Assembly (NCBI GenBank): GCA_022539475.1
Contig: VCMS01000134.1
Location: 115,289 to 179,288 of the forward strand
Origin: Gracilaria domingensis
Lineage: Eukaryota; Rhodophyta; Florideophyceae; Gracilariales; Gracilariaceae
Direction of reading: 5' to 3'
DNA: 64,000 nucleotides
Part shown: in pieces, positions 16,835 through 35,000 of the stretch
Layout of the letters: each line of letters begins with the position of its first letter
How positions within the stretch are numbered: the first letter of the stretch is position 1
Position numbers and translations under genes: made by a program
The notes under the pieces: model-generated
Databases searched by the model: none
Seen by the model: only the letters and a program-made list of their open reading frames with translations
What the model was told of the DNA's origin: nothing

Positions 16835-17070
16835 CTTAGAGTTGCTCACCCTCTGTCTCAACTGGGGGCATGTTCTTCTTCCGTCACATCCTTTGTGGGT
16901 TGTGACAAAAAAAGAATATGTCACCACTCGACACCGGATGGGTAACAATGGTAGCACGTAGAGTAGTTCATCCTCCCTCTCAGCGTCCACTGGGGATATA
17001 TTCATGTTCTCTCACATCCTTTCCCGGTTGTGATACAAGAGAAATACATCTCCAATGGAGACGGAGAATA
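16835..17070. repeat. diverged tandem duplication of about 128 bp
   Basis: Two adjacent copies about 128 bp apart share CACATCCTTT (16885 and 17013) followed by GGTTGTGA, and a preceding CCACTGGGG/CAACTGGGGG block. Each copy can pair partly with itself. No coding signal. A third, weaker resemblance lies near 16760-16800. Confidence 0.4.
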
Positions 17071-17174
17071 TAGTCGTGATAACACGTAAAGGTAACAATG
17101 TAATAAACAATAAATTTATGCTACTATCTCTAACAAACCTTTCGAAAACCAGCTATGACATGAGCTGGGTTACT

Positions 17175-17435
17175 CTAGCCAAAGATGGCAGATCCTGCAA
17201 CTGAAATGTTTGCACCGGCCTTCACTACTGCTTTCACAGTACTTAGTCCAATACCTCCATCCACCTGTATCTCTATTCTTGGGTACAACTCCCTTGCATG
17301 TCGCACCTTATCTAGAACACCCTCCATAAACGCCTGTCCTCCAAACCCTGGCTCCACCGTCATCAACAATAACATGTCTACAGCTCCTTCCTTCATAAGT
17401 GCTTCTACGACCTTTATAGAGGTATTCGGGCGCAA
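17175..17435 (-). pseudogene. rpe: C-terminal fragment of ribulose-phosphate 3-epimerase
   Basis: About 90 codons read as the C-terminal third of ribulose-5-phosphate 3-epimerase, the pentose-phosphate and Calvin-cycle enzyme that interconverts ribulose-5-P and xylulose-5-P. Family hallmarks are DMLLLMTVEPGFGGQ (the phosphate-binding and gating region), IEIQVDGGIG (with the second catalytic Asp) and SVAGSAIFG near the end. There is no N-terminal two-thirds: an in-frame TAA lies only five codons upstream of the first residues shown (GLRPNTSI). The frame stops directly after AIFG, about 20 residues earlier than usual. It is a truncated, almost certainly inactive copy, from a partial duplication or retroposition; the functional gene must be elsewhere. 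Confidence 0.8.
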
Positions 17436-17847
17436 TCCAACTCCATCCTCTTAATTATGGCAATCCAAGTGAAGCTATAGAACCCGTTCACGTCATTTCT
17501 GAAGCCAAAATGGCTCCTTTCATGCTGTATTCAAGCTCCCCGTAACTCGTACTTTACAACTACTTTACAACTCAGGTTCGAAATCAGTTTCATTCATTGC
17601 ACACTTTCTACTCTTCCACCTACCTTTCATAAAAGATCATCACACTTTGTGGCTTGTCGTCTCATACAAGCCCTATCATTCATTCAGTACAATCACATAT
17701 CATACATTTCGCTCACTTTCACAAAGTGAACCATGTTCCCGTTCTGCGCTTCCCAACCGTTTTTACTTAAGTATCACTCTTTACCCCAGCAGTTCTCCGC
17801 CCCATCTTCTATTTCTATCGTCACACAAAAACATTCGAACACTTGCA

Positions 17848-18750
17848 ATGAACTCCCAGTCCGACATGCCTCCCACTCCGCCTCCGAGTCCCAGATACTC
17901 TGACGTCCCTCAGGCCTCATCTCCCGCCCGAAGGACTCGGGCCGTTATTGTTGGAAGGGGGCGTATAGGTACCATGCTGGCGAACGAAGAAGATACGGTC
18001 ATTTCCGCACACGAATTCTGCAGCATGGCTGCTACCTCTCATCTTTCTGATGTACCGATACTAGTTTGTGGAAGAACGAACACCCTGGAGACCGTAATTG
18101 AGGCTTGCCCTTATTCGCTCAGAGAGAATCTCGTTTTCTTCCAGAACGGAGACATCATATCATTGGTTTCGAAGCTCGGTGTGGACAAATGTTCAAAATT
18201 TGTCCTATACGTTGGTGTCCCCTCAAGAAACGCAGCTCCGCAGGATGGTGTCACTCCTCAAAGTCCGGATGGTCTCACTGTCGCAACAGGAAAGTGGGCC
18301 TCCAACGTTGCAGACAGGTTTAGGTCTATGGGTCTCACTTGCGGGGTTGTCGACGAAGACACATTTCTCGTAAGCTATTATGAGAAGCTCGTGTGGCTAT
18401 CAGCGTTCAACATCGTCGGGGCCTCAAGAGGTTTCATTCCTATGGACGTAGTCGCTACGGAGTGCAGTACGGTTGTGCTCACAATAATGAAAGAGCTGTT
18501 GAAGATAGTTTCGCTTAAGACAGGTACTACTTTCAACCTGGAAGAGACCGTTGGGCGACTTCTTGCATATGGGAAAACTCTCGTTGGCTTCCCTACTTCT
18601 TTCTCCGACTTTCAGTTTAGGAACGCGTACTTCTACGACTTTTCCCGCCAAGAAAGAAACATTGTAGGCGGGGACCCCGCTCCTTTTCATACAAACTACG
18701 TCAACGTTGTTAAGGAAAAGTTATCCCCCTCCCCATTCCCCCAGCTTTGA
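17848..18750 (+). CDS. ketopantoate reductase-like (ApbA/PanE family) dehydrogenase
   Basis: The 300-residue protein starts at ATG 17848 (MNSQSDMPP); the frame is open further upstream but without ATG. After a Pro/Ser-rich leader, residues 32-44 (AVIVGRGRIGTML) form a Rossmann strand and GxGxxG dinucleotide-binding loop. A later conserved helix carries an EKLVW element, equivalent to the K-containing helix of ketopantoate reductases, and the C-terminal GFPTSFSDFQFRNAYFYD resembles the closing motif of this group in algae and plants. The family reduces 2-dehydropantoate with NADPH for pantothenate/CoA synthesis, but many distant members have other 2-oxoacid substrates, so the substrate is uncertain. 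The leader could be a targeting peptide, though it is short and poor in Arg. It is a single uninterrupted frame and probably functional. Confidence 0.7.
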   Translation: MNSQSDMPPTPPPSPRYSDVPQASSPARRTRAVIVGRGRIGTMLANEEDTVISAHEFCSMAATSHLSDVPILVCGRTNTLETVIEACPYSLRENLVFFQNGDIISLVSKLGVDKCSKFVLYVGVPSRNAAPQDGVTPQSPDGLTVATGKWASNVADRFRSMGLTCGVVDEDTFLVSYYEKLVWLSAFNIVGASRGFIPMDVVATECSTVVLTIMKELLKIVSLKTGTTFNLEETVGRLLAYGKTLVGFPTSFSDFQFRNAYFYDFSRQERNIVGGDPAPFHTNYVNVVKEKLSPSPFPQL

Positions 18751-19376
18751 GGTTAGAACACATGACTTTTCGGTGTTGTAAACCTTTTAGAGATAGTTAA
18801 ACATAAAAGTTACTTTATCGAAATGACCTGTTCCTATTACATTACTTTTACTGTTCGTCCTTCTGTGGTTCAAATATGCCCCTTTAAATCCTACATCCGT
18901 TATCACTAATACTTCGCTAAGATTTTGCTAGATAGAAAATGTTCATTCCATATCATTAAAGTGCACGATACTAGTAACGAAACAAGTACAAAAATTGTGA
19001 TATTTCTGAAGAACTAAGCGTTTGCATTACTTGGGGCACCAGTATAAAGTAGGTAAACCTTTTATGGGTTTCAACCCGTAATGGAGGTTGTTTTACTATT
19101 CTTGATTTCTAAGCTCATGTTAAAGATATTTACAGTTTTCTTTACCCACTTGAACCCGTACATATAATTTATGACTAAATCATCCTTTCTTTACTTCAAA
19201 TCGATGCAAAAACTTCTCCTCCTAGTAACTTTTTAAAACAGTACTACAATACCCGTATATGGTCGTTCTTAGACTCTTTTTATACTACGAAACACCTTGT
19301 GAACATCAATCACATCCTTCTCATTCGTATACCCACACCCATTTGCAAAACGAACCCTTTCGAAAGCTTTCAAAAA
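18751..19376. other. AT-rich intergenic region
   Basis: About 625 bp between the reductase-like gene and the first HAD gene. AT-rich and without coding signal. It must contain the 3' end of the former and the promoter of the latter. A TTTTTATACTACG at about 19275-19288, roughly 95 bp upstream of the next ATG, is a possible TATA-like element. Confidence 0.35.
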
Positions 19377-20249
19377 ATGTATAACTCAGAAGTTAGAGCC
19401 CAAGAAGTAACTCCTCAGCAGCTGGCTAACGAAATATTCGAAAATGGCTACGCCGTGATTAGTGATGTTGACGGTACTCTGAAAAGAGCTGGGGAGAACA
19501 TTCCTGCCGAAACAGTCAAATGCATGAAGTACATCAACGCACTCGTTGGTTTCGGAATTGCTACTGGGCGAGATATAGAGGATGCCGAGAGTTTCATGGA
19601 GCACCTGGGTGGCTACACTTTTGGCATCTCTGGAAACCAAGGCGCACGGGTGAGATTATCCAATGGTACCGAAATTGATCAGGATCTTGACAGGGAAGGC
19701 TACGAAAGATGTGCAGCCGAACTTGAGAGACTTGCACTCTCCTTAAATGAATCGCACGGACTTCACGAAGAGCGTCAACAAGCAGTGGTGAGCACTAGAA
19801 AAGACAGTGGACTCCCTAACTTCACGTACAATGGACTGTCGAAGTGGAAAACAGAAGTTAACTCCGGTATTTTAAAAGTGTTGACATCCTTTCCGAACCT
19901 GGTTGCGTACCCTCAAGATGAAAACTGTGACATAGGGGACATTCGTTTCACGAAAAATAGTGGGGCGCTAGCCTTGGTTGAAAACGACCCCCAGTTCGAC
20001 ACACATTTAATCGTTTCTTTCGGGAATGCTTCCAATGATGGCCCTCTATATGAAATGGCAACCCTGGCAGTTCATGTGAAGGGAGAAGACCATCCAGCAG
20101 CGGTAACATATCTTGTCGATGGGGTGGAGGACGTGCATGAGACCATCAGAAGGGTGGCAGAACTGTACGGGTACAGAAAATGCAAGTGTCAATGGTTTAG
20201 AAATGCTCTTGGAATTTGTTTCAAGTGCTACGATGCCTGTAATACTTAG
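19377..20249 (+). CDS. HAD-superfamily phosphatase (Cof/IIB-like)
   Basis: A 290-residue protein from ATG 19377 (MYNSEVRAQ). Motif I is VISDVDGTLK with nucleophile Asp30 and acid/base Asp32. Motif II is FGIATGRD. A cap domain with DSGLPNFTYN follows, and motif IV is SFGNASNDGPLYEMA, where the usual GD of GDxxND is GN. This layout is that of HAD subfamily IIB (Cof-type, sugar-phosphate and phosphoglycolate phosphatases), which hydrolyse phosphate monoesters with Mg2+. The substrate cannot be told. A Cys-rich tail (KCKCQWFRNALGICFKCYDACN) is unusual and may bind metal or be lipidated. It lies tail to tail, 52 bp from a paralogue on the other strand. Probably functional. Confidence 0.8.
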   Translation: MYNSEVRAQEVTPQQLANEIFENGYAVISDVDGTLKRAGENIPAETVKCMKYINALVGFGIATGRDIEDAESFMEHLGGYTFGISGNQGARVRLSNGTEIDQDLDREGYERCAAELERLALSLNESHGLHEERQQAVVSTRKDSGLPNFTYNGLSKWKTEVNSGILKVLTSFPNLVAYPQDENCDIGDIRFTKNSGALALVENDPQFDTHLIVSFGNASNDGPLYEMATLAVHVKGEDHPAAVTYLVDGVEDVHETIRRVAELYGYRKCKCQWFRNALGICFKCYDACNT

Positions 20250-20301
20250 CTATGATATGAGATCTCAGTAATAAAAGTGTCGTATATATCTCAATACCCT
20301 T

Positions 20302-21213
20302 TTATGAATCATGGTGGTTTTTATCGTGCTCCTTTTCCTCGTAGCCGTACAACAGAGCCACCAACATAATTGTCGAATGTACATCCTCCACGCTTTCGAA
20401 CAGGTTGTGTACTCCACCCGGGATACAATCTTCTTTGACGTGAACGCCGTACACGCCTACCTCATGCAAAGGCCCGTCGCTCAAAGCACTTCCGAACGTC
20501 ACGACGTCATCCGTATCAATAAATCTCGGTTCATTATCCACAAGATTTCCTCCTCCGCTTCCTTTTGTGTATCGCTTGTCCACAATTTCGCAACTTTTAT
20601 CGCCGGGATAGATAACAAACGCATCCATCTTCTGCAACAGGTCCCCAATAGCAGAATCCACTTCTTCTCTCCACTGCCACAGTTTGTTGTACACGAAATT
20701 GGGAAGGCCACTATCACTTCTGGTCTCCACGAACCCCTTCTCATCATCATTCACAATACCATGCCTCCTATTCAAATCCCTTGCCAGGAACAGTAGTCCG
20801 TCAACAGTGTGGTCAAGGGTGTGATCATGGAATGCACCCTTAATTTCCCTCTCGTCAGAGAAACGTAAGAAAGCTCCATGATTCGCCGAGACACCAAACT
20901 TATAGTCTACGAGTCCTTCCATTTTCCCCTCCACGTCGCCCACATCACCTCCTGTGACGAGTCCGAAACCAACACGTTCGTCAATGAACTTCATACACTT
21001 CACAACTTCTTCTGGAATTGACTCTCCTTCTCTTCTCAACGTTCCATCAACGGAACTTAATATACCGTAACCATTGGCATATATGAACTTAGACAAGGTA
21101 CTTGGTGAAATTTCCGCCAAGTCTCTCTGTTCCTCTGCCATTTTTCCTGATACAGTCACCATACTGCCACAAGTACCGCATAGACAGGAACTGTATAGAC
21201 TTCTCAGTTTCAT
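20302..21213 (-). CDS. HAD-like paralogue lacking the catalytic nucleophile
   Basis: A 303-residue protein from ATG 21213. It is collinear with the gene at 19377-20249 over nearly its whole length (NGYGILSSVDGTLRREGE, VVKCMKFIDERVGFG, DSGLPNFVYN, VEDVHSTIMLVALLYG). In motif I the nucleophilic Asp is Ser54 (SSVDGT, against SDVDGT in the neighbour); the second Asp is kept. Motif II reads VTGGD rather than ATGRD, and motif IV reads FGSALSDGP. With the nucleophile absent it should not act as a phosphatase. The frame is intact and the rest well conserved, so a regulatory or binding role is more likely than simple decay. The N-terminus has a Cys-containing 20-residue extension. The tail-to-tail arrangement suggests an inverted duplication. 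Confidence 0.75.
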   Translation of the reverse strand: MKLRSLYSSCLCGTCGSMVTVSGKMAEEQRDLAEISPSTLSKFIYANGYGILSSVDGTLRREGESIPEEVVKCMKFIDERVGFGLVTGGDVGDVEGKMEGLVDYKFGVSANHGAFLRFSDEREIKGAFHDHTLDHTVDGLLFLARDLNRRHGIVNDDEKGFVETRSDSGLPNFVYNKLWQWREEVDSAIGDLLQKMDAFVIYPGDKSCEIVDKRYTKGSGGGNLVDNEPRFIDTDDVVTFGSALSDGPLHEVGVYGVHVKEDCIPGGVHNLFESVEDVHSTIMLVALLYGYEEKEHDKNHHDS

Positions 21214-21477
21214 ACTTCTCTTAAAAGCAACCTTAAGTGCAGTTTCAGAAATGTTAGGACGCTACATGTTCAATTGCGAATTGACTGGTGCCACCAATGA
21301 TGTTAACGATACCGAGCATTTGGCATGTTGCAATTAGACGCAACTGGACCAAAGACGTTTGACATTTGTTCAATTACCAGCCTGCCGCACCTTTTCTATG
21401 TTCATATGTATAGCCTTGTAGTAGTACTCTACTCTTAATACTCGCAAGGCACTCCTAATTTACTAATCATCTCATTC

Positions 21478-22525
21478 TCATCCACTTCGAGGCGCTCGCA
21501 GCCTCATTATTGGCAAATCGTCATCACTAATACTCTCGAGCACTTCGGTTCTACCGGCGTCCGTTTCCACACCAATCTCCACGACCACTTGGTCTTCGTC
21601 CATGTCAACCGCCCCACCCTCCTTATCGAACAACAGTTCATCCTCCGCCTCTTCCTCCTCGTCACCATTGACAAACGTGGGTCGGAAATCCCGCACCCGA
21701 TGAACAGCATCAGGTAGTGCGTAGCCCTCTGGTACCATGTACATGTGGTATCTAACCAGCAAATCCATAGACTCGGGCCTATCCACCTTGTCCTTCCCAC
21801 TTGCTCCAGCGTGTGTCACATCACCACGGCCCACGAATACAGAGTACGGTGGGATGATTATCTTCTTCGCTGGATACACCTCCGACATCACTCGCAACTG
21901 TTGGTTGTTCATCCCCACCAGTTGATGGCTTCCAGCGCTCACCCAAAGAGGAAAGCCCTCTTTCCCAGAGGCCATTACAAAGTATCCGAGGTTGCCAGTA
22001 TTCATTGTTTCCTTCGTAACCAGACCACTGAAGTCGGTGTGCAGCGTCTGGCGCTTGCACTTTCTCGTCGTCCCCAGAAATCGACCACCAGTTTTCGGAG
22101 TGTACATCTTCACAGCTTCCCTTTCATTGTCCCATAGTCCCAAAGCCGCAGCAATTGTACCCATTCGAACATCAAGTAAAGCACGCGACCTTACAACCCA
22201 CCTGAGCTCCTCATTATCCTCCGGCTTCTCCACCGTACCCCAACGTGTCGACATCACTCTCCCCTCAAATGGTCCATCGCTACCGTCCTTCCATCCTTCA
22301 TCATCGTTGATTATTTGAACAAACGACTTCTGTTCCTCTCCTTTCCGTATATCCGGCATCGCTCCATACTCATTCTCGAAGAAGTCCACCAACTTCCCCG
22401 ACACATCTCCGAACTCCCGAACTTCTTCCAACTCCTCCCATTTAGGGACACCATTATCCGTCGCAAAGCCATCAAGCACGCAATATCCATTCTGCCTTGC
22501 ATTCGGGCGAAGAACATTTGCCCAA
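21478..22525 (-). CDS. 2-oxoglutarate/Fe(II) dioxygenase-like domain (C-terminal part of ParB-like protein)
   Basis: The frame is open from just after a TGA at about 22525 to 21478. It begins with QNGYCVLDGFATDNG, which resembles the opening strand of phytanoyl-CoA-hydroxylase-like dioxygenases. It then has RQTLHTDFSG (HxD iron ligands), GFPLWVSAGSH, a turn GRGDVTHAGAS (distal His) and LLVRYHMYM (Arg expected to bind 2-oxoglutarate). The order and spacing fit a double-stranded beta-helix 2-OG oxygenase. An acidic tail follows. There is no good ATG at the start, and the preceding ParB-like frame overlaps it, so this is most likely the C-terminal domain of the same protein, reached across a one-base frame change. 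Substrate unknown; with its partners, DNA bases or histones are candidates (inference). Confidence 0.6.
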
Positions 22526-24782
22526 ATTCGTCATGCTCCTTCGCAGCAACCCACAGAACCTCTTCATCATCCATACCTGTCGGTCGAGTACGAGGATACT
22601 GCATACCAAATGTCTCCGCCCGTAGGCGATGTTCAGCCCTTGCAGCGTGCCAAAAGACAAGATGGTGTACATCTCTGAGATTCGAGACACTTAGCAGCTC
22701 CGACCTATGTCCCTTCGGCAAGTGAATGACTCTGAGCCAGGGGTCCTTGTGCTCAATTATGTTCTTCCCTTTCCATTCCTGCGGTCTCAGCCTGGCATAC
22801 CCGCACCATGATGGGTTCGGTGGGCCATCATATGGGTCACCTCGAACAAGTCCGTGCTCCTCAGATTCCGGAAGAGCTGTAGGTAACTCGTCATCAAATA
22901 ACCCCCCACCTGTCTCTTGCTGATCGTCTGGCGCAGCATCTTTCTCGACGGTGACAACCCGTGGAACTGTCACAGAAAGAAGCTCATCGTCATCCACAAA
23001 TGCAGAACTGCCTGCGTTCTCTGCATTCGCTCCCTCTCCCAATGCCACGAACTGAACCTTCATCGACCTTCCTCTCAGCACATGTTCATTTAGTTGAGAC
23101 ATCAGGTCATCCGGTGTCATGCTGTTCAGAGTAGATCTCATCTGTTGTGTGAAAGTCTTTCTCTGTTTCTTCCTCGGCGGAGCCCGCTGTTCTTCTTCAG
23201 AGCTATCCAGAACTTCTATGACACCTCGATTTCGGCCGTGCTCAATTTCCCTATAACTCACCTGCGCCCGTTCTCGTGCACCTCTTCGCGGCTCCCCTTC
23301 TTCACTGGCAGATGTTGCAGCAGCAGCAGCGGGAGTCCTCCTCTTCGTCACGGACTGCTTCACTGGTGCGGGGGGCGGAATTCCCTTGAGCATCGTCCGC
23401 AATCGATTCTGAAAGGAAGTAGCGGCAGTTCTAATTGAGTTCTTCCTGCTCCGAACACGCGGCAATGTGTTGAAGTTCACAACTTGTCCCAAAAGGAACT
23501 GATTCACCGCTGCGATGTTGTCTGGGTCTTCAACGTCATCTTCGTGCGATGGAGCAGAAAGACTGACTTCGCGTTTCAGAAACACTTCCATGGACTCTTC
23601 CTCGTTCAGTTCATTCCTCACTGCTCGAGCCGCGCGGAACAGAGACACTGCTCTATCATAAAAGAAACCTCGAACCTCCTCAAATCTTTTCCATTGCTTT
23701 GTCTTTGTCGACTTGCCCTTCAATAGAAACATCTGAAGACAATCAAGAATGAAGGAAAACTCCTCGGCATCCAAAACATATAGCGGAGTATGGGAAAGAT
23801 GTGTGAGACCTATGTCACTCACAGTCTCACATATATCCTCGAAATGGGCCAGCATTCCCTCACGAGACATGAGTTGCAGGGCGACATTGGCATATCTCAG
23901 ATACTGACGCTCTTGCACAGTCCCAATCAGTTGGCTCTCTTTCAACACTTCTGTCACTTCCGCAGGATCCACGTCTGCTGGCGTCACCCCCTCAACATCT
24001 TCAATTAGAATGGCGACCACACTAACTATAGAGTGTATCTTGTCTGCAAACATCATCCTTCGCATGGTACTCGTCGACTCATTGAGGTACGAAGCAACAC
24101 ATAACAATTCCTTCATCCCAATGGGCCTCCCATCTCTTCGTATCAGCAGATTGCAACGCCAAAACTTGGCTAATCGCTTCCAGTTCGGTGCACCAGTCGC
24201 TGCCAAATATTGTATAGCTTTCAGACGATGCAAACCATCTACAATGAAGCACTTCTTCGTTAGGCGTCCCTTGTCAGTATCCCTCTCTCCCGTAGTAGCA
24301 TCTTGTAAGGCCAACACTGGAGAACCCATCGACTGCAATATCCCCCGCTCCTCCATACTCTTCACAAGGGCTTCAACGTGGCGTTTACTTACTCCACGGA
24401 GTAAATTGGGCGGAGTGTCCACCAGAGTGATGTCAACAGTAACAACAACCATCCGGTACTGATTGAGGTTCACCTTTGGTACCTTCTGACGAATTCGTCT
24501 GTACGTCTTGCTCCGAGTAGGTGTCCCTTGTGTTCCAGACCGCTCGCCAGAAACACTTGAACGTGCCATTCTTGCGGACAGAAGCACAACGTCATCGTCC
24601 TGCTGCTCCGCAGTTTCTGGTTCAGTTTGGGGTACAGATGGACCAGCTCCTTGTGCGGATTGCGCATCCGCGTCTGGAAGGGGACCTTTTATGATCTCAT
24701 TTTCCTCCTCTTGCACAGCCGTCCCCTGCTGAACCGTCTGTTTCGACGCAGAAGTTCCCCTTGTGTCGACCGTCTGATTCAT
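22311..24782 (-). CDS. large ParB-like domain protein
   Basis: An 823-residue frame from ATG 24782. The same frame is open back to about 24879, so the true N-terminus is the 24779-25303 frame. Around residues 108-250 is a ParB/sulfiredoxin-like domain: LVDTPPNLLRGVSKRHVEAL, then KSMEERGILQ and CFIVDGLHRLKAIQYL, where GLHR occupies the place of the nucleotide-binding GxxR motif of ParB CTPases. It continues with a large helical region; a basic, low-complexity region with RTMLKGIPPPAP and an NLS-like PPRKKQRK; VIEVLDSSEEEQ, which fits a SUMO-interaction motif; and a conserved-looking domain before the dioxygenase part. About 70 terminal codons (22311-22525) overlap the dioxygenase frame and are probably not real. 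ParB proteins bind DNA palindromes and load along DNA; a chromatin role is inferred. Confidence 0.68.
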   Translation of the reverse strand: MNQTVDTRGTSASKQTVQQGTAVQEEENEIIKGPLPDADAQSAQGAGPSVPQTEPETAEQQDDDVVLLSARMARSSVSGERSGTQGTPTRSKTYRRIRQKVPKVNLNQYRMVVVTVDITLVDTPPNLLRGVSKRHVEALVKSMEERGILQSMGSPVLALQDATTGERDTDKGRLTKKCFIVDGLHRLKAIQYLAATGAPNWKRLAKFWRCNLLIRRDGRPIGMKELLCVASYLNESTSTMRRMMFADKIHSIVSVVAILIEDVEGVTPADVDPAEVTEVLKESQLIGTVQERQYLRYANVALQLMSREGMLAHFEDICETVSDIGLTHLSHTPLYVLDAEEFSFILDCLQMFLLKGKSTKTKQWKRFEEVRGFFYDRAVSLFRAARAVRNELNEEESMEVFLKREVSLSAPSHEDDVEDPDNIAAVNQFLLGQVVNFNTLPRVRSRKNSIRTAATSFQNRLRTMLKGIPPPAPVKQSVTKRRTPAAAAATSASEEGEPRRGARERAQVSYREIEHGRNRGVIEVLDSSEEEQRAPPRKKQRKTFTQQMRSTLNSMTPDDLMSQLNEHVLRGRSMKVQFVALGEGANAENAGSSAFVDDDELLSVTVPRVVTVEKDAAPDDQQETGGGLFDDELPTALPESEEHGLVRGDPYDGPPNPSWCGYARLRPQEWKGKNIIEHKDPWLRVIHLPKGHRSELLSVSNLRDVHHLVFWHAARAEHRLRAETFGMQYPRTRPTGMDDEEVLWVAAKEHDEFGQMFFARMQGRMDIACLMALRRIMVSLNGRSWKKFGSSEMCRGSWWTSSRMSMERCRIYGKERNRSRLFK

Positions 24783-25384
24783 CGCAGCAGATGCCCTTTT
24801 CGACGCAGTGGGCTCCGTAGCGGAGGTAGACTTTGTTTGACCTGTCCGCTTCGTAGCTGGGGATGATATTGTCCCTTAGTCCGCTTCGTAACAGACGATG
24901 GACCGGCCCGCGGAGGTGCTACTGATGCGCTACCTCTCGGTGTTGATGAACTTCGAATTGGCTCCGTGCGGCTTGTCGGCGTCATCGCTTCACTCATAGC
25001 GCTCACCGTTCGTCGCTTGGACGCCGGAATGCTGGCTGCCACGGGTTCCATCATTTTCTCATCCCAAGGAGCGGCCGTTCGGAGATCCTGGATGTATTGT
25101 GGAAGATCCAGGCCCTCCGCCCGGTAAGGGTAGAACGTCTGACCGCTTCGACTGATGAGAATATTATGAACCACCACAAGACCTGGGTCCAATTGCTTTC
25201 CGTGCAACTCGCGGCGTAGAACACTTCCAATTCCATGCAACAACGCTTCCCGCACTATCACCTTTCCTTCATCCTCAATATCCATCTGCAGAGAAACCCG
25301 CATTCAACCTTGCAATAATCGAGTGCTTCGCCGAGTGCGAGGAGTCACGCTTTGCGTACGCTTTCGAACACGAGTTGGCTTCAT
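24779..25384 (-). CDS. N-terminal part of the ParB-like protein
   Basis: The frame starting at ATG 25303 encodes 174 residues (MRVSLQMDIEDEGKVIV) and ends at a TGA overlapping the ATG of the next frame. It holds a compact domain (residues 1-85, with HGIGSVLRRELHGKQLDPGL) and then a Ser/Thr/Arg/Pro-rich linker. Directly upstream and in frame is a 26-codon stretch from ATG 25384 (MKPTRVRKRTQSVTPRTRRS), strongly basic and NLS-like, ending in TGA just before ATG 25303. This suggests the ancestral start was 25384 and that the TGA is a nonsense change. Within the linker, 12-residue repeats containing ATKRTGQT lie at the frame switch to the next ORF; the spacing between two ACGAAGCGGAC copies there is 35 nt instead of a multiple of three. 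I recognise no family for the first domain. Confidence 0.55.
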
Positions 25385-25798
25385 GTTGAACAGCTATTGC
25401 AGTGAAAGGTGTATATCAACAATACGCTCGCTCTGGACGATACAAGAACGGATACGAGCCTTTAAATGGCGACTTACGCTGGGCACCCCCGCTTTCGGCA
25501 GCTCCTCCCAGCGCACTGCCAGTTTCGTCCGTGTCCTGTCCGTGGCCGCTCGCACGCTGATTGTACGCTTTAGAGTCGTGGAGTTCGCGCAATGATGACT
25601 CACGCGAGCAATGGTCGCGTTCTCTAATCGTGGTCTTCAAATGCTTTGCATAGTAGTCAAGAGTACACTCATTCACTTCCATGTACAGCCTACTCCCGCA
25701 AATACACGTGGACAGCGGAGCCAACGTACCGGCGGCCGGGTGTAGCGAAATCACTGCGGGGCGGCGTGTTTTGGGAGGTCCCGGGAAGGCGCCGGAAT

Positions 25799-26013
25799 GT
25801 GGCCAGAACGTACCCGCGGGCGGGGGGGGGGTCGGTCGTGTTAGGGTAGCTACCCTAACACGACCGGACCCCCCGCCCGCGGGCATAAAATCGCACATTT
25901 TTCAAAAAATCGTCCAAAACGTGCCCGCGGGCGGGGGGGTCCGGTCGTGTTAGAGTAGGTACCCTAACACGACCGACCCCCCCCCCCCCCGCCCGCGGGC
26001 ACGTTCTGGCCAC
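25799..26013. repeat. nested GC-rich palindromes (two ~70-bp hairpins inside an inverted repeat)
   Basis: Two nearly perfect palindromes lie at about 25812-25883 and 25923-26000. Each half runs CCCGCGGGCG, a G run, TCGGTCGTGTTAGGG, meeting its complement at TAGCTA or AGGTAC. They are separated by an AT-rich spacer (25884-25921). A perfect 13-bp inverted repeat, GTGGCCAGAACGT, encloses the pair (25799-25811 and 26001-26013). The homopolymers reach 10 G (25822-25831) and 14 C (25977-25990). The DNA could form two cruciforms or one large stem, and the G runs could form quadruplexes. Candidate roles are a binding site for the neighbouring ParB-like protein, a replication origin, or a recombination end. 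Confidence 0.8.
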
Positions 26014-26123
26014 ACGCCGTGCACATATATCAAACTAGAGAAAACTAGCGCTTCACATCCACTTGATCCGCGACTTTTAGCACAATACGGGACCGTTGCA
26101 ATAGCTCCGAATCGCGACGTGGC

Positions 26124-26165
26124 CGACACGCGACGCTATCGCTCCGACACGCGACGCTATCGCTC
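26124..26165. repeat. 21-bp tandem duplication
   Basis: The unit CGACACGCGACGCTATCGCT plus one C occurs twice head to tail (26124-26144, 26145-26165), directly inside the right arm of the inverted repeat. It has no counterpart at the left arm, so it breaks the symmetry of the control region and may be a duplicated protein-binding site or replication slippage. Confidence 0.65.
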
Positions 26166-26281
26166 CGAGCGGACACGGACACGGACGAGACTGGCAGTGC
26201 GCTGGGAGGAGCGGCCGAAAGCGGGGGTGCCCAGCGTAAGTCGCCATTTAAAGGCTCGCCTCCGTTGTTTGCGCTGAAGCG

Positions 26282-27289
26282 ATGGATTCCACCGATGTTG
26301 GAGAGGAGATACATCCTATCGACATGAGTGCTCCGCCTCCGGCGTTCCATGCATATGTCAGACTTTTCTTGGTTCTTCGCGATGCTTTGGCAAACAGCGA
26401 TGGAGGCCCTGATCGCCCACGGGACGTGGGGTTTAGAGGGTTAATAGAGTTCTGCGCCGAGAACTATAAGGATATTCCGGAGACCAGGAAGATGTTTGAG
26501 GAGGCCACTAACTCCAAGAACCTGCAGAACTTGACACTGCAACAGCTGCAAAAGAGTGTTGTGAACAACAAACCTATGGAACAACGATATCTTGTAACGA
26601 AGCTTCTTGACAAGAAGGACGGGGATGAGGACCAGAGACTGCGCAATTTTTTCCTTCTCTCTATGGATATGGGTATATACCTACCTGTGCGATGCCTGGT
26701 TGGTTATTTCATGACCAGGAGAAAGCAGGTTCTGAAGACGACAGTGTTCATCCCACCAACAGCTGTGAACCCATTTGAGGTCGTTATATACTGGTCATAC
26801 CTCGGCCACATAATGGGAGAGAACGACAACATCGGAATGATGAAGAAGAAACAACCGAAAAAGAAACGAAAAGTGAACCATGCACCATCTGTGTACATAC
26901 CCACTTTTACGTCGTTCTCCAAAGACAACTGTGATCGACTGGGATTCGCTATCAGTAAGGTCGTATTGGCATGGAGTTGTTTTGCGGCTCATCTTGGATA
27001 CACGAACGTTCAGCACATGGTGAAACCATACATTTACATGAATATGCAGACGTTGAAGTATACAGCGCTAGAGACACGGGAGTTTGGTTATGCCCCGCCG
27101 AGCCAGAGTACTCGATTCAACACAAAGGATGTGTCACAGAGCAGTACTAGTGGATCGGTGGAGACCTTGAGTGATGAATGCGATACAAACCTCCGAATAC
27201 TGGCTAAGGAATTTTTGACAGACCTCGAAACCGTATGCACCCACGATAGCCTCTATAGCTTACGGGCTGATCAGATGAGAACTGGATAG
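26282..27289 (+). CDS. unknown protein, first ORF of the methyltransferase-SET unit
   Basis: A 335-residue frame from ATG 26282 (MDSTDVGEEIHPIDM), placed 24 bp outside the right arm of the shared control region. It is well balanced in composition, mostly helical, with a basic NLS-like patch KKKQPKKKRKV at about residues 184-194. I recognise no family. It ends with TAG 27287, only 17 bp before the ATG of the next frame, and the next frame is open back to 27271. This is unusually tight for two separate eukaryotic genes, so the two are probably parts of one protein separated by a -1 frame change, or a dicistronic unit. Confidence 0.6.
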   Translation: MDSTDVGEEIHPIDMSAPPPAFHAYVRLFLVLRDALANSDGGPDRPRDVGFRGLIEFCAENYKDIPETRKMFEEATNSKNLQNLTLQQLQKSVVNNKPMEQRYLVTKLLDKKDGDEDQRLRNFFLLSMDMGIYLPVRCLVGYFMTRRKQVLKTTVFIPPTAVNPFEVVIYWSYLGHIMGENDNIGMMKKKQPKKKRKVNHAPSVYIPTFTSFSKDNCDRLGFAISKVVLAWSCFAAHLGYTNVQHMVKPYIYMNMQTLKYTALETREFGYAPPSQSTRFNTKDVSQSSTSGSVETLSDECDTNLRILAKEFLTDLETVCTHDSLYSLRADQMRTG

Positions 27290-27306
27290 AGTTTTCGGAG
27301 ATACGG

Positions 27307-28134
27307 ATGGATACCGTATCTGGTTCTGACTCCGGTGAGTTGCCTGCTCGATTTCAGAAGTTTTCGGAGTTGCTATGGAAACCGATACAGGATATGCGTC
27401 ATGCGGCAGGGTTCCATGTCGGCATTCAGGCGAAACCTGATATTGAACTGACGAAAACCCCTAAAACTTCCGGTAATGCCGAACCTTCTTCGACGAAGTC
27501 TGCCCCATCCCCACCTCGTCGAGAGTATATGAACCTCGTGAGCTCCGATAGCGACGAGTTCGAGAAGACGGTGAATCTTGCGGAGCATGAATCTCGGGTT
27601 GCCGGTTACAACATCCAAAAGACTGGTATTGAGCCGCCCATGAAGAGGATATCCAGTCTCCTTCGAATGAACATGGACAAGGTGTGGAAGGGGATGAGAA
27701 AGTCACACTTTGTAGCGTATAACTGTGACATGACGGACCTGAGGCACACACACGAAACGTTTGTGAATCAGAGTGAGATTTTATGGGGTGAGGCACAGCT
27801 TGTCCTAACAGACCCTCCCTTTAACACTCGAAGGAAGAGGAACAAACGGAATAGTGGTCACGATGTCTTCAGTGAGGAAGACATGATCCGTACGGCTGAC
27901 TTAATACGTTCCGCGCTTCGGTCAGGTGGGCACTTCATTATATTCTGTGCCGTGGCACAGTTTCATGTTTGGCACAGGATACTTTCGGAAACGGCGAGTA
28001 CGAAAGATGAAGCTGAAGCGAAGGTAAAGCAGAACTCATGCCTTCGTTTAAAGTGGATGCGAATCCACTGGTGTTCATCCGGGATCGCAGTAATGTTGGA
28101 GGGAATCCACGAAAGTTTGGGATACAGCCCGTAA
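27307..28134 (+). CDS. beta-class DNA methyltransferase, N-terminal half
   Basis: A 275-residue frame from ATG 27307. An N-terminal region of about 130 residues contains NLVSSDSDEFEK, similar to a SUMO-interaction motif. At about residues 165-175 is LVLTDPPFNTRRK, the DPPF catalytic motif IV of N6-adenine/N4-cytosine DNA methyltransferases. It is followed by SALRSGGHFIIFCAVAQFHVW, the next conserved strand. The SAM-binding FxGxG motif is not in this frame but in the following one; DPPF before FxGxG is the beta-class (CcrM-like) order. Coding switches to the 28038-29435 frame between 28019 and 28134; the tail of about 28-35 codons after the switch is probably not real. Confidence 0.7.
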   Translation: MDTVSGSDSGELPARFQKFSELLWKPIQDMRHAAGFHVGIQAKPDIELTKTPKTSGNAEPSSTKSAPSPPRREYMNLVSSDSDEFEKTVNLAEHESRVAGYNIQKTGIEPPMKRISSLLRMNMDKVWKGMRKSHFVAYNCDMTDLRHTHETFVNQSEILWGEAQLVLTDPPFNTRRKRNKRNSGHDVFSEEDMIRTADLIRSALRSGGHFIIFCAVAQFHVWHRILSETASTKDEAEAKVKQNSCLRLKWMRIHWCSSGIAVMLEGIHESLGYSP

Positions 28135-29435
28135 CGGAGTACGCCGTTCATGGGGTGAAGCGTAGATTGCGACCATCGGAGGAAGCCAGTCTTAGTCCAT
28201 TTGAGGAGAACAATTTCATTCCTTCTACTTTCCCGGCTAACAGGAATGTAATTGACCGGGTGCCAAAACCGAGAGCGGGGGAGTGGTCGGCATGGAAGGT
28301 ACATGAGCCAGGTAGTTCAGTACCAGGTGGGCAGTACATAAGACCGGAGCAGAAGTCGAGGGAGTTGATGAAGGAGTTGATATGTCGCTTCACAAGACCG
28401 GGTGATCTTGTCATGGACATGTTCGCGGGAACTTTTTCTACGGGTATGGCGTGCCTATCGCTGACAAAGCATAGGAAGTTCTGGGGGTGCGAGAAGAATA
28501 GGCCATGTTTCAGCCATGCGAAGCACCATCTAACGACTCTTATGGCCGAAGTTATTCGCGGGGGGAAGAATGACATCCTGGTTGAACAGGAGGTGGTGGA
28601 TGCGGCTTCAACGACTTATGAACGGGTTCCACATCGGGACCGAGGTTGGCTTGAATGGGAGGCTCCATTTGGTTACCCCCAGTACCAAGTGATGCCTGGA
28701 CATATTACTCAGTTCCTAGGAAGATACTGGAAGGACTGGGACTTTGTCGACAAGTGTGGACAGCGTACTGTAGATCGTTGGGAGGAGAAGTACCGAGGAG
28801 CTCTGAATCTAATGGATATGCATATGCTGTTGACTGTTGAAGCCAATCGCTATCGCTTACATATAGCATCTTCTAAGATTCGACATCCCCGTGCTGGTAT
28901 GGGGATGTTCACGGAACATAAGATATTGGCTGGGGAAACTATCTGCCATTTCTATGGAACTTTGGTATACACGGATCTGACGAACCGGAAGGAAAGACAC
29001 TTAACGTATGGAAGTGGCTGTCTCGAAGCAACTCCAGTGCGGTACAAGTTGTTTTCTATGATGGTCACTGTGACTGGTACGGAGTTTCTGCACCTGAGGA
29101 ACACACCAGGACAGGCTCAGGATAGAAAGGAGAGCGAAGTCTACATTGTCCCGGCGCCTTTTTGTATCGGGGGCTACATGAACGACGCCGGATATCAAGC
29201 CGGGGATCCCGATTTATCGGAGCCCCGGTCAAACAGGACTCGAAGTGCCAATGTGCAGGTGGTGGAAGCGAAGTCCGTGATACAGTTTAAGTCAGACCTT
29301 TCTAACTATGCTCTACTTCGTTGTAGAGCAGTAAGAGATATTGAGAGGGGCGAAGAGTTGTATTCACTACGGAGAGCAGTACGCCTGGGACTGGGCTCTG
29401 ACATTGGAGCAATAGATGAGTTCAGTAGCGAATAG
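28038..29435 (+). CDS. DNA methyltransferase C-terminal half fused to a SET domain
   Basis: A 465-residue frame; the ATG at 28038 may be internal, since coding enters from the previous frame. NPLVFIRDRSNVGG (start) is the target-region strand of a DNA methyltransferase. PGDLVMDMFAGTFSTGMACL (about residues 120-139) is the SAM-binding motif I, followed by KFWGCEKNRPCFSHAKHHL. From about residue 275 a SET-like domain begins: PRAGMGMFTEHKILAGETIC and YGTLVY, then CIGGYMNDAGY, an Asn-Val segment, and IERGEELYSLRRAVRLG at the end. SET domains methylate protein lysines, commonly histones. The usual NHS and C-terminal DYG signatures are weak: MND replaces NHS and SLR replaces DYG, so lysine-methyltransferase activity is uncertain. 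A DNA methyltransferase joined to SET would couple two chromatin marks. Confidence 0.72.
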   Translation: MPSFKVDANPLVFIRDRSNVGGNPRKFGIQPVTEYAVHGVKRRLRPSEEASLSPFEENNFIPSTFPANRNVIDRVPKPRAGEWSAWKVHEPGSSVPGGQYIRPEQKSRELMKELICRFTRPGDLVMDMFAGTFSTGMACLSLTKHRKFWGCEKNRPCFSHAKHHLTTLMAEVIRGGKNDILVEQEVVDAASTTYERVPHRDRGWLEWEAPFGYPQYQVMPGHITQFLGRYWKDWDFVDKCGQRTVDRWEEKYRGALNLMDMHMLLTVEANRYRLHIASSKIRHPRAGMGMFTEHKILAGETICHFYGTLVYTDLTNRKERHLTYGSGCLEATPVRYKLFSMMVTVTGTEFLHLRNTPGQAQDRKESEVYIVPAPFCIGGYMNDAGYQAGDPDLSEPRSNRTRSANVQVVEAKSVIQFKSDLSNYALLRCRAVRDIERGEELYSLRRAVRLGLGSDIGAIDEFSSE

Positions 29436-30139
29436 AAAGTAAATATGCTTGTGAGTGTTGCAGCTGCCTGCAATACGCGTTGTTGTACATGTACACTGGA
29501 GCTCTTCATCTGTAACGGCATATTCTGCGCAACCCATTGGCACCTCAAATTCCTAAAAAGCAGGAACTGCGGAGTCTCCCGAATATCTGAACCATGCACC
29601 CCCCCCACCCCCTCCCCCCCTCCCCAACAATTTCGTTTCATTTACCCTGTTTATCTCCACAACGATGGGTATAACGCCNNNNNNNNNNNNNNNNNNNNNN
29701 NNNNNNNNNNNNNNNNNNNNNNNNNNNNNNNNNNNNNNNNNNNNNNNNNNNNNNNNNNNNNNNNNNNNNNNNNNNNNNNNNNNNNNNNNNNNNNNNNNNN
29801 NNNNNNNNNNNNNNNNNNNNNNNNNNNNNNNNNNNNNNNNNNNNNNNNNCGTCTTCCGGGATCGCGTCAAGATCGTGTCATGCGAATGATGTCGTCCGCC
29901 GTCAACTGCCGGCTAATGCAAACGTGCATCTGTCTCTGCCCCTCAAGAAGATGAGGTAACTCGGCCAGCGGGTCAGGACAAAAGGGCATGACAACTGGAC
30001 CGAAGAGATCGTAGGACCAAAAACCTTCAATGATCCCGGCCTATATATATCGAACCGGAGCTACGGAGGGCGGGTTACGCGCCCAGTGGGATCTGGACAA
30101 CAAGGACAATGACCAGAAAGCTCGTGAGAGCTCTTAGGT
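29436..30139. other. spacer with C-rich tract and assembly gap
   Basis: A plus-strand C-rich tract (about 29597-29629, nearly all C with few A or T) precedes a run of N at 29679-29849. The unknown bases mean the right edge of the methyltransferase cassette cannot be determined. No gene is seen on either side of the gap before 30140. Confidence 0.9.
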
Positions 30140-31894
30140 ATGTTAAGATCGTTCACGTCCATGTCCCTGTCTTCTACGACACTGGGGCCGCCTATCGATT
30201 CGTATCAAATGCTCGCAATGGGGTCCGGCAAGGGAGAAACCACAATAAGAAATCAGAGACAACTGATAGACGAGTTACTTTTCGACCTTTCCGCTCTTTC
30301 CCAGAAGGGGGCCGTTGCAGCTCGTACGAGGCCCAATTCATCTGATATACCATGCCATGGAGGAGGACAGACACGGGAGTTGGAGCTCGGAGCCGTGCCA
30401 AGGGTGGACACAGAACGCCTGCAGCCTCTCGTGCTAAGGCTATGGCACATGAGGATAGTTCCGATAACGAAATAACACCGAATCCTGCGGCATTACCGGG
30501 GCCTGTCGCCGAAGAAGCTAGGGAAATAACGGAAGATATCCAAACTGGTGTGAATTCAAGCTCTATGAACAGACCTGATCTTTTAAATGAACTGAATTGC
30601 TGAAAGAAAAGGTTAAGACGCTACAAGAGGACTTGATGGTTCGGGAATTCTAGTGAAGGTCGCCCAAGAGCAGAGTACGGCTTTGAAAAAAGAGGCTTGA
30701 GAGAAGGATCTAGTCATTGAAGGGCTAAGGGGGCACTGAAACAGGAGGGAGATAGGAGTACACGTGCTGGTGAACCTGGGCAGACAGGTCGAAAGAAGCA
30801 TAAAATTGAGGTGTGCGACGAGTTTCGAGGGTTTGCTCGAGCAGTGTATCACAACATGCTGACGTGGGAAGGAGAAAACAAGTGAGCTATGCTCGAAGGT
30901 GAGTCGCTCACCCGAAATTGGGGTAACCGTGCCGAGAAGGTGGAAACGCAACTGAGAGTGGGAAGGCTTATTGAGCCGGAGGAAGGTGGGTCATACATGG
31001 TTCCTAAAAACCCCGTGGAGCTCTTGGGCAGTTTTGGCATGTTCACACCGTCGGTAGAGGGGGGCCAGATGCTTTGCTGAAGAAAATGGTTGAAAGCGAG
31101 TGAAGGAGTTGAGCTGGGAAGGTATTAGAAAAGCATCTCTTACCGACAGGTGTATACTGGAACTTTGTGCAGATATGTGCCTTAGGCAGAGAATGCGGCA
31201 GACCATGAGTGACGTCGTGGCGTTCGTAAGAGAAATACGAGGGATAAACTATTTCTGCTCCTGGGGTACCGATTCTGATTTGGAGAAGAACAAAGCTGGT
31301 AGAAGAGAATGCTGACGAACTCACAATGCAGTTGAAGGAAGCGCAGGAGAACATACTGCTCTTGACGAAAATGGTGGTACCGAACACTTCATGGTGGAGA
31401 AAAGCCCCATTTGTTCGTCTAAAGTACTCCAATGCGGACAATGTCGAGGATATGCCGACGGAAGATCAAGACTTGTTCTCCGAAACCGTGTCGGGGTACA
31501 AGTGCTGAAGGAATTTATTGGGTATGATGTGGAAGACAAGGATACGGGCACCTTTTTAGATGGCACAATACTGTTGCTCGCACGTTTGGACGCTTGGGTG
31601 TTGACGGTTGTGAGCCTTCTAAGTACGGATGTGTCAAGGGGTGGCCAGAGACAGAAACTGTTTACAAAGAAGTTTGCCGAACTGCTACCTCTGTGTTTAA
31701 AGAATGTTCTGGGGGATGTTAGGCAACGTGTCTTGAGGACCAATTCCAGCGAGTTTCATAATTTTGGAACGACAACGGAAGATTGGACTAAGGTTCTTGG
31801 TAATGACATGAGAGAGGCTACATTTGGATATCGAATGCCGTCGAACGGAAGACTTTACCTCACTGTGAAAGAACAATTTTTTATTGACATGTGA
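30140..31894 (+). pseudogene. decayed gene for an unknown coiled-coil protein
   Basis: Protein-like sequence runs through all three plus frames in turn. Pieces include 30140-30430 (MLRSFTSMSL and LIDELLFDLSALSQKG), 30432-30600 (MAHEDSSDNEITPNPAALPG), a helical segment near 30590-30655 (LLKEKVKTLQEDLMVREF), 30889-31080, 31326-31508 and finally 31509-31894 (LKEFIGYDVEDKDTG, KKFAELLPLCLKNVLGDV). At least five frame changes or stops separate them. I recognise no domain. It converges on the decayed transposase to its right, so it could be a companion gene of that element, but the pairing is not demonstrated. Confidence 0.4.
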
Positions 31895-32050
31895 GCCGAA
31901 GATTGGGGTCTATTAGCGATTGCTTCATTGGTGAATGCGAGGAAGGGATATGGAGTTCAAGGAAATGGACATGAACGATTTCGGAAGTAACACAGGATCA
32001 CAAGAAAAGGCACCACAAGGCGAACATGTAGAGGATGGAGCCCTTAATGT

Positions 32051-35000
32051 TTAAGGCTGTACAAGATCAACGTGCTCAGTTGGTCCTTCATCTGAATCAT
32101 GATAGAATCGATTGATGTAGAATCGGTGTTGAAACCATTGAAGCGGAGGACAAAAAGGTGGAGCAGGGTAGTTTGATCGAACAACATGGACAGTTCCCTG
32201 TAGTGCAGAAGCCGGAACCATCCCGTACCAAGGAGTTAACTCTACGATAGTCTCCGCTTTGGAATGACGAGGGAACGGAGGAGTGTGGTTCTTTTCATCG
32301 TTTGTAGCCCAGCATAAAGATATGCATTTCAATATGTGGTCGATGTTTGTTGCGGGGGGTAAAACCTCGAAATACCGGACGAATGCCACCTCTGGTGCGG
32401 TAAGTGCAGAATCAAGGAGAGATATTCGAATCAGAGCGACTACCTGGGCAACCCAAGTCTCTGAATCTTCTCCGCTTACCAATACAGTGGAAAACTTTGG
32501 CTTTCTACTGGGACCAAATGCTGGAGAAGCGAAGACACGTTGGATGATGGGGTATTTGGGTCGTCCCAGCTTAAGTGCCTTAGAAGACGAATGAAGTGTT
32601 CAAGAGTCGGAACGAAACCGCCTTTCACGAGGGCCGAATTCACCAGAGTTATCCATGTCTTTTCTGGGAAGTATGTAATAGAGTGCTCATCCAGTGTTTC
32701 TTTCACGAGACTGAGGAAAGGAGGAAGGGCCTGTTCACCAATTTGATCAAGAATCGACCTTGTGTCCGTACTTGAGAACATTTCTCTAACAGCAGTCCAT
32801 GTTTTTGAACTGGACATACTTGAAACACAATGTTGAAGAGCTCGTAAAGTGAAAGAACGCCCTCTCATTGCAAACCGAGGAAGCTGTGTGGAAGTTCCTG
32901 GTAAACCTGGATTACGCTGGTAAGGAGTATTGCCATTCCATTGCTTTCTAACATGTCCGTGCTCAATGGAGCGAATAGTCTCCTCCACAGCCGTTGCTGT
33001 TCTTCTGGACGTCTTTTGTAGTGTCTTTTAAATAGCAGGTGTGCATGTTCGTATATGCCTGCGTCGTAGTACTTGATACTTCCCAGACGGCGAATATCGT
33101 CCACGAGATGATCGAGAAGATGAAACTTCAGAGTTCCCAGTCTGGAGGGATGAAAATCCGCCAGAGTCTTTGTTGCGGAACGCTTGAAGGCTTCAATCTC
33201 CGAACTAAGACACAGGAGAGAGCTTTCAGTCCAATACGGGTCACGATTGTATCTGAATAAGTCGAGAGCAAGTCCGAGTACTGAGAGAAAACGGTTGTGA
33301 TTGGGGCAACGTCCTGTTCTCCACAGCATATGTCAAAGAATGCTCCTATGAAGGGAAAGACCATGTCAAGTGCTTTGTAGTTTTTGGCCTCCAGCATTCC
33401 ACGGAGACCGTCTTTCGTGAAGATACCATTCAAAGATTTGCCTTTCTCCTGCGTGGAGAAATCGATATGTAAACCTTTGCAGGAGAATCGCGTTCTATGG
33501 CAGCTAGAATTGCGTTTGCATGGTTGAGGAGTTGGGTGCGTATCGTTCGAAATGAACGCGATGCAGATGTTCCTATTGTGGTGCACAGGGTGTCTGACTG
33601 CAGTCTCTCGATTGTGGCCGTTTTATCAACTTTGAGATGCCGAGATGCAAGTTGTGGAATGGTTCGAATGAGAACAGACTGTATGGAGACAAGTCCGGGA
33701 TCATTCCAAGGCTTACGGAAGTTTCGAGGAACGAAGGAATGAGAGATATGGAATTTGAACGCATCAGAGTATCCGCTTGAGATCTCCTCTCCCTCGCACG
33801 ACGTGGACGTCTTTCCGCCTCGTCTTTTTGTGCATGTTGCAAGATAGCTGTGTATGTCTTTCGGATGCTTTTTGTGTGCTTTTGAGAACGTCCGTTGAAT
33901 GAGGTGGGGATAGGACTGCATAAAGATGAGCGAGGGGCTTTGCATCTATGACACGGGCATTCCGTTTTGGTCCCATGAAGAATAGACAGAATGTCCTTAG
34001 CCTCAGGAATATCCGCACAATAACTTGCAAGCAGAGGATGGCACACTCGACTTAGTTTGTCTTCGCCGATGAACTGAAAACCTTTCTGCGTGAGATTTAG
34101 AATGGGCTCCAGGACTTGACGAAGAGATTCTTGAAGGATTTGCATCCTGGACTCGCGTAGAGACTTGCTAGAAACGAATGGCATTGCGTCTGCTTCAGAT
34201 GCGGAAACCTCGATCAGTGTGGTAGGGAAGTATGCCACTACTGTGAGGTCATCACGGATACACTTACGGCGAAGCTCGTCGGAGAAGTTGAGAAATATGA
34301 GGTGAAGAGGATAGGCGGTAACCGATGTTTGCTTTAGAGTTGTTGAAGACTTATCGGTGTATACCTGCAGAAGACCTACGAAAGATTCACTGTAACTTAT
34401 TTCTTGGGAGTACCACACTATTCTACTATCCAAAGAGCCCATGACCATTTCCTTAAGTTTTGAGGTGGCGTCTCTTGCGAGAGAGCCGGACATGGGGTGA
34501 GATATTTTCGTGGAGTGGGTCTGAGGTATAGGGTGGAAGAATGTGTTTTCGTTGTTAGCCAACTGGAGCTGTTTCACAAGTGTCTGAACGGGGTCTCTCG
34601 TGTAGAGGGTGGCGCTGAACTTACATCCTTCTGGCGAGACAGTTCTGCGATTGAAACCGTCCTTTGAGGCGTATCGTTCGAAAATGGCGTTCTTCAGTTC
34701 TGTACAGCGCTTGGAACTTGTTATGGTCTCGTTGAATCGCTTTTGCGAGAATCGCGGGTCCCGAAGTAGACCAATTAGCTCGTCCGCCTCACGATGACCA
34801 AGGTTGGAAGCTACTGAAGCCAGACAAACCGTGAGATAATCCATATGCAAATCACCAAGGGCCTCCTCAGAAGGCACTGGGCGGGAACTGCTTCCGTGTT
34901 CTCGCTCTAATGACGCGGGACCCGTGGAAGGAGAAACACAATGCGAAGTGTCCGGAATGGGAGGGGCGCACGGAGTGGGGTCGACGATGTCCTCGGACAC

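Follow-up and report, generated by a model that had tools for sequence, protein, structure and literature searches.

A multicopy transposon of Plavaka type in the red alga Gracilaria domingensis and its core of putative chromatin-modifying genes

The DNA considered here (the window) is a stretch of 64,000 nucleotides from the red alga Gracilaria domingensis, in which positions 21478 to 29435 are the central part of a multicopy DNA transposon of about 22,000 nucleotides. Two genes that face away from each other occupy this central part: on the reverse strand (21478..25384), a gene encoding a ParB-like domain together with a domain resembling 2-oxoglutarate (2-OG) oxygenases; and on the forward strand (26282..29435), a gene encoding a DNA methyltransferase joined to a SET domain. 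A first-pass annotation, made from the letters alone, had described the pair as a self-contained chromatin-modification cassette, possibly mobile. Its place in a mobile element is borne out by a Plavaka transposase, by defined termini and by many copies; however, the pair is not self-contained, but forms the middle of a larger transposon (about 15115 to 37454) with the transposase and other genes.

Each of the two genes is broken in the window, the leftward one into the open reading frames (ORFs) 24779-25303, 22311-24782 and 21478-22479, and the rightward one into three frames (26282-27289, 27307-28134 and 28038-29435). These are the ORFs that the first-pass annotation had listed, with the motifs that it had read in them: FIVDGLHRLKA and LHTDF..GRGDVTHAG..RYHMY leftward, LTDPPF, FAGTFSTG and a SET match rightward. 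In copy C296a the ParB-like/oxygenase-like gene is a single frame of 1308 amino acids (ten other copies were read), and in copy C171 the methyltransferase-SET gene is a single frame of 1055 amino acids, with the SET motif ELYFNYG at its end; this last motif is missing from the window copy through a frame break. Thus, since single frames exist in these two copies, the breaks in the window are to be seen as decay of this particular copy.

Two further genes complete the core. On the forward strand (29563..32060, ends approximate) lies a gene for a protein of 832 amino acids, which is an open frame in copy C171, is broken in the window, where an assembly gap (29679-29849) cuts it, and has no Pfam match. 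On the reverse strand (32476..35309) lies the Plavaka (CACTA-related) transposase gene, frame-broken here and a frame of 1100 amino acids where intact in other copies. The ORF 33573-35309 matches PF18759 with E=3.9e-19 (score 69.5 bits, cut-off 26.3), and intact transposase frames score 65.6 bits in the family to which the window copy belongs (family 1) and 85.3 bits in a second, distant family (family 2, below). The motifs TDKS/SDKS, ADIPE, CHRC, HNLH/HNFH and YEHAH are kept in the transposases of both families and were assigned by eye to the DDE, CxxC and HxxH elements, the spacing of the H pair in HxxH being 2 here as against the 3-4 given for Plavaka in the published description (PMC12730594). 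Throughout the assembly searched (77.9 Mb), PF18759 matches 123 places, which fall into at least two groups by the region matched.

The two central genes are separated by a divergent promoter region between their outward-facing start codons (25385..26281), in which the inverted-repeat control region noticed at first pass proved to be real. Its long arms of 93 nucleotides (25444..25536 and 26177..26269) are 95% complementary, and between them lie a perfect palindrome of 34 bp, a candidate operator (25833..25866), and a second, slightly altered copy of it (25942..25975). Eight family-1 sequences, including the window, have two to six copies of the 34-bp palindrome, whereas copies C38a, C106 and C121 have none. 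The inner 32 bp of the palindrome, with up to three mismatches, occur at 1455 sites in the genome, while the reversed control occurs at none. The core of the palindrome at 25833-25866 contains TTAGGG and CCCTAA, the hexamers of a widespread telomere repeat.

The palindrome was considered as a private operator of family 1, an idea which is weakened by the presence of such arrays in more than one repeat family. Twelve palindrome clusters were sampled from those listed, chosen for having no known marker nearby: seven are family-1 copies with a deletion and five have other flanks. Four of these five (L141, L142, L144 and L146) have about 1.5 kb in common at about 87-99% identity, the fifth (L138) is 81-87% identical to the four over about 0.5-0.7 kb, and all five are about 70-75% like the family-1 promoter outside the palindromes. 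The occurrence of the palindrome in several repeat families would fit a common binding site, and would also fit a repeat that spreads by itself. The group of four appears as a separate repeat family with a palindrome array and different neighbouring ORFs, one of which we take, by eye, to be ATP-grasp-like as a candidate label.

The borders of the element were determined by DNA searches, for which all copy counts are lower bounds. The family-1 repeat has sharp borders at about 15115 and about 37454, and its copies are mostly 95-98% identical. The whole copy in the window is thus placed at 15115..37454 (no strand assigned), from comparison of termini across copies, and lacks the outermost 20 or so nucleotides of its left end. 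That end reads CGTCTGTGTTC[TG]GC, followed by common inward sequence, in all 13 copies whose left side was read. The right end reads ..CATCTGCAAGA[GC]ACAGA[CT]G in 11 of 11 copies read, and the flank beyond it varies between copies; in the window the right terminus (..CATCTGCAAGAGACAGACG) lies at 37430..37454, the flank diverging immediately outside it in all eleven. The termini are short inverted repeats, CGTCTGT..ACAGACG, in both families. Among six family-1 copies read at both ends, three have a 2-bp target duplication (TA in C106, AT in C121 and AA in C38b) and three have none (C262, C23 and C383); for comparison, 4 of 30 mispaired flanks match too. The locus of C262 has two right ends, neither of which matches its left flank. 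A viral or polinton origin was also considered and is unsupported, as the scanned ORFs match neither a capsid protein nor a DNA polymerase.

The second Plavaka family was read at one member, C12 (20 kb plus 3 kb). Its genes follow in the order transposase (45% identical to that of family 1), homologue of the 832-amino-acid protein (33-38%, at the equivalent place), methyltransferase-SET (32%, a single frame of 1118 amino acids) and ParB-like/oxygenase-like gene (29-45%, frame-broken in C12), i.e., the four core genes have the same order and relative orientations in both families. The promoter of family 2 likewise has long arms, of 91 and 74 nucleotides, and contains a perfect palindrome of 46 bp, different in sequence and present twice. 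The C12 unit measures 19,977 bp between CGTCTGT at 1880 and ACAGACG at 21850, each of which occurs once in the 23 kb, and its ends have CGTCTGTGTTTCCGG in common. The end on the transposase side is identical in C202, C565 and C169; the other end was not seen in the stretch of C202 guessed to contain it. The flanks of C12 show no matching target duplication, and the far end adjoins a piece of a family-1 copy. Beside this copy, at C12:64400-65400 (L133), there are ORFs that look by eye like a Harbinger-type transposase. Since four genes and a type of promoter have been kept in such distant families, the core is seen as an old, maintained unit. The transposon is a large one, of about 20-23 kb, and of Plavaka type, and we are highly confident of this identity, with a conserved four-gene core.

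Linkage within family 1 was also assessed by counting. At least 22 of 55 scored ParB-like places have a divergent methyltransferase-SET gene within 9 kb, one has a convergent one and 32 have no listed partner, the list of partners being incomplete (C69a carries a methyltransferase-SET gene that is not among the matches listed); the expectation by chance is about 0.02 such neighbours per ParB-like place. The adjacency and divergence proposed at first pass are therefore found in other copies as well as in family 2. With at least 57 genome matches of the ParB-like ORF, at least 92 of the methyltransferase-SET ORF and homologues elsewhere, the cassette occurs far above chance. Nine of the 92 listed methyltransferase-SET matches sit in frames of 1055 amino acids and are free of stops within the match. 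There are also true deletions: four of the ten copies read at the outset (C106, C121, C262 and C38b) retain little or nothing of the methyltransferase-SET gene. One deletion junction, 26128/~32427, is common to C262 and to the seven deletion copies found among the twelve palindrome clusters (L139, L140, L143, L145, L147, L148 and L149), so that a form without the methyltransferase-SET gene has multiplied; the junctions in C106 and C121 are different ones.

The methyltransferase and SET assignments stand on conventional profile matches. The window ORFs match PF01555 (E=1.2e-10) and PF00856 (E=1.1e-4). Sixteen homologues were found, one of them from Pyropia yezoensis, and at E<=0.1 all 16 match PF01555 and 14 match PF00856; the SET motif GEELF.DYG is seen in their alignment. 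PF01555, DPPY/F and FxGT together place the enzyme among the beta-class N6/N4 DNA methyltransferases; motif IV, DPP, is invariant across the alignment. DPPY/F mostly denotes N6-adenine methyltransferases, and SPPY N4-cytosine ones. Of proteins with solved structures, DpnA, CcrM, MboIIA and RsrI, all adenine methylases, come closest in PDB profile searches. The methyltransferase is thus predicted to be of the N6-adenine type, and the predicted substrate of the SET domain is histone lysine. Viral contigs searched with the methyltransferase-SET ORF gave no relatives; searched with the alignment, they gave 132, the best 80 of which align with the methyltransferase alone, at 22-50% identity over query residues 442-768, and none with the SET domain.

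The assignments in the leftward protein are tentative, being based on motifs and weak profile matches. In the oxygenase-like domain all eight sequences compared, a set without the truncated P0003, have H167, D169, H243 and R259, the HxD...H facial triad with downstream R of the 2-OG/Fe(II) oxygenase superfamily. The domain has no relevant match among Pfam, NCBIfam or PDB profiles, and a profile search for PF12851 (Tet_JBP) found none in ten oxygenase-like members. In the ParB-like domain DGxxR is invariant in 8 of 8 sequences, and PHROG ParB profiles match one A3 member (E=0.001), the intact family-1 frame (0.0085), P0023 (0.018) and P0018 (6.2e-5), while PF02195 (ParB_N) has no genome match at E<=1. 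P0018 is a methyltransferase-SET protein with an N-terminal ParB-like domain, which aligns in hhalign with its counterparts in the oxygenase proteins (E=3.6e-5, probability 71%); thus, the same kind of ParB-like domain appears to be joined to either enzyme. The bacterial and archaeal genomes scanned contained no relative of the ParB-like/oxygenase protein, and viral contigs searched with the oxygenase alignment gave none either. The ParB-like ORF is 93% and 86% identical to two Gracilaria domingensis proteins (P0001 and P0002). In the public annotation these are called Mediator subunit 15-like and SasA, and the oxygenase core is left out of the predicted proteins. As these names are unrelated to its domains, the ParB-like gene appears to be misannotated.

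The left part of family 1 carries genes of another kind. Nearest to the core there are two genes for HAD-like hydrolases, one on the reverse strand at 20302..21213 (PF08282 E=0.0018, 18.5 bits, under the cut-off of 20.9 bits) and one on the forward strand at 19299..20249 (PF08282 E=5.2e-12). They are followed outwards by a forward frame of 415 amino acids from stop to stop (17503..18750), which has no Pfam match and a GRGRIG stretch of Rossmann-like appearance; by the C-terminal piece of a ribulose-phosphate 3-epimerase on the reverse strand (17175..17450; PF00834, 2e-26); and by a reverse ORF of 308 amino acids with no function assigned (15659..16585). The epimerase occurs at 151 or more places in the genome, 39 listed rows spanning model positions 2-198; some of these places, e.g. 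C296:20533-21162, fall where the left part of family 1 is expected. It seems, therefore, that an ordinary sugar enzyme is carried in high copy by the transposon. A comparable sugar cargo was looked for in family 2 and not seen: five ORFs scanned in its left part have no Pfam match above cut-off, and the left part of family 1 has no DNA similarity inside the family-2 unit. Directly to the left of the element in the window (11504-14846) lie two further ORFs, one of rve/RVT_2 (copia-like) type and one for a DDE_1 transposase.

As to which mark might be in play, the host offers some indications. The assembly has no match to PF00145, the C5-cytosine methyltransferases, and none to PF12851 at E<=10, in exon-by-exon searches that a split gene could escape. 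Among 15 copies, C>T changes number 8 at 123 CpG sites and 35 at 369 other sites, and G>A changes 16 at 123 and 56 at 558, so that no clear CpG decay is seen. This combination argues against 5-methylcytosine as the mark and for amino-group methylation, and points to adenine methylation.

The explanation that we consider best, with a probability of roughly 0.6 when identity, conserved core and mechanism are taken together, is that of a Plavaka transposon whose core would control the chromatin of the element. At the divergent promoter, the palindromes would be read by the ParB-like domain; the methyltransferase with its fused SET domain would place adenine and histone-lysine methyl marks on the DNA of the element; and the oxygenase-like domain would oxidise or remove one of these marks there. 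The likely purpose would be to keep the divergent promoter and the transposase gene from silencing, so that the element stays transcribable. In several eukaryotes N6-methyladenine (6mA) is reported to go with chromatin that permits transcription (PMC12695648), and fungal Plavaka elements carry TET/JBP genes thought to reverse silencing (PMC12730594). For such a self-directed anti-silencing mechanism, predicted from domains and motifs, we put the odds a little short of even. More tentative still is the widest form of the proposal, i.e., that this transposon lineage imposes its own chromatin state through a complete, self-addressed epigenetic kit (a reader of palindromes, a writer of adenine and histone-lysine marks in one chain and a mark-editing oxygenase), in a host without a detected C5-cytosine enzyme, and that the DNA methylation of this genome may come chiefly from it.

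Several observations weigh against this explanation as a whole. The deletion form is common, which means that the methyltransferase is not required in every copy for spread. A codon test within family 1 gave nonsynonymous-to-synonymous (N:S) counts of 165:75 among singletons and of 26:18 among changes found in more than one copy, with a neutral expectation of 2.76, and these raw counts suggest that constraint within family 1 is weak. Neither the oxygenase-like nor the ParB-like fold has a significant Pfam or PDB match, and an hhalign comparison of the oxygenase-like domain with two PhyH proteins of the same genome covered 14 columns (LWV..SH/LTV..SH) at 5% probability. The N6/N4 profile is a generic one, 6mA being read from the DPP motifs. 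The palindrome array extends beyond family 1 (five of twelve clusters), so it need not be the private operator of the element, and 2-bp target duplications were seen in only three of six copies.

The main rival to anti-silencing is a role in silencing itself: the modification genes would lay repressive marks on the element's own copies, as a self-imposed limit on copy number, or on competitors, with the ParB-like/oxygenase protein as a repressor of the promoter. That copies without the methyltransferase-SET gene are common, share one junction and appear to have spread speaks for such a role, and N4CMT of bdelloid rotifers, an N6_N4-type methyltransferase with a chromodomain, takes part in transposon silencing (PMC8885841). 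Yet the genes have stayed together across deep divergence, which self-harm alone would not favour, and both the DPPY/F motif and the nearest relatives of solved structure indicate methylation of adenine. A silencing role is rated as possible but unlikely, at clearly lower odds than protection of the promoter.

A second alternative, which we judge improbable, is that the modification genes act on transposition, methylation and palindrome binding serving to mark new or terminal DNA and so to time or limit excision. Dam methylation regulates Tn10 in this manner. The core genes do travel with the transposase, and the methyltransferase is of adenine type; this alternative, however, leaves the SET domain and the oxygenase-like domain unexplained. 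Very little credence is given to the production of a hypermodified base, as in phages, by oxygenase, methyltransferase and sugar-related cargo: family 1 does carry the epimerase and two HAD-like genes, but no glycosyltransferase match was found in the ORFs scanned, and the frames scanned in the core and the left part of family 2 match no sugar enzyme. Mere neighbourhood, i.e., chromatin genes captured once and amplified by the transposon without a role, has a parallel in the apparently passive metabolic cargo of family 1 but is scarcely credible, as the four-gene order is kept in a family whose transposase is 45% identical, the frames are open in a number of copies and the ParB-like domain is joined to either partner.

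Self-management of chromatin by a transposon core would matter for several reasons. Transposons with a single epigenetic enzyme are already known; a conserved set of writer fusion, oxygenase-like protein and DNA-reading-like domain would test whether mobile DNA sets its own chromatin state. The elements offer direct candidates on three points: adenine methylation in red algae, a single polypeptide for cross-talk between DNA and histones, and operators of palindromic form in the mobile DNA of eukaryotes. They also show a red-algal genome that is loaded with large transposons carrying cargo; to two of their gene products the public annotation gives unrelated names.

The first-pass annotation knew of no described element with this set of genes, and none was found in the literature searched, which included few subscription papers. 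The nearest likeness is to the TET/JBP-positive Plavaka elements of fungi, which combine a Plavaka transposase with a putative base-modifying oxygenase as cargo (PMC12730594). The elements described here differ from them in their red-algal host, in an oxygenase-like domain that has no Tet_JBP match and is fused to a ParB-like domain, and in the addition of the methyltransferase-SET gene. The same source gives target duplications of 2 bp (A) or 2-3 bp (B) for Plavaka, and termini of TGT..ACA (A) or CATCA..TGATG (B); CGTCTGT..ACAGACG is unlike both, and thus represents a separate type of Plavaka terminus. The giant repeats of Amoebidium are also long and have a Plavaka transposase, and their genes have database matches in red algae (PMC11244446); however, many of those genes are tyrosine recombinases in tandem clusters, and neither a methyltransferase-SET nor a ParB-like oxygenase gene is mentioned in the available text. 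HarbingerS and MuDR of Phytophthora are likewise DNA transposons that carry a SET gene, but they belong to other transposase superfamilies, and the part of the report available mentions no fusion with a DNA methyltransferase (PMC12730594). Bdelloid N4CMT resembles the methyltransferase-SET protein in joining a bacterial-type N6_N4 amino-methyltransferase to a eukaryotic chromatin domain (PMC8885841). That domain is a chromodomain rather than SET, and N4CMT is a host gene which writes N4-methylcytosine, whereas the protein described here is encoded by a transposon and has DPPY/F.

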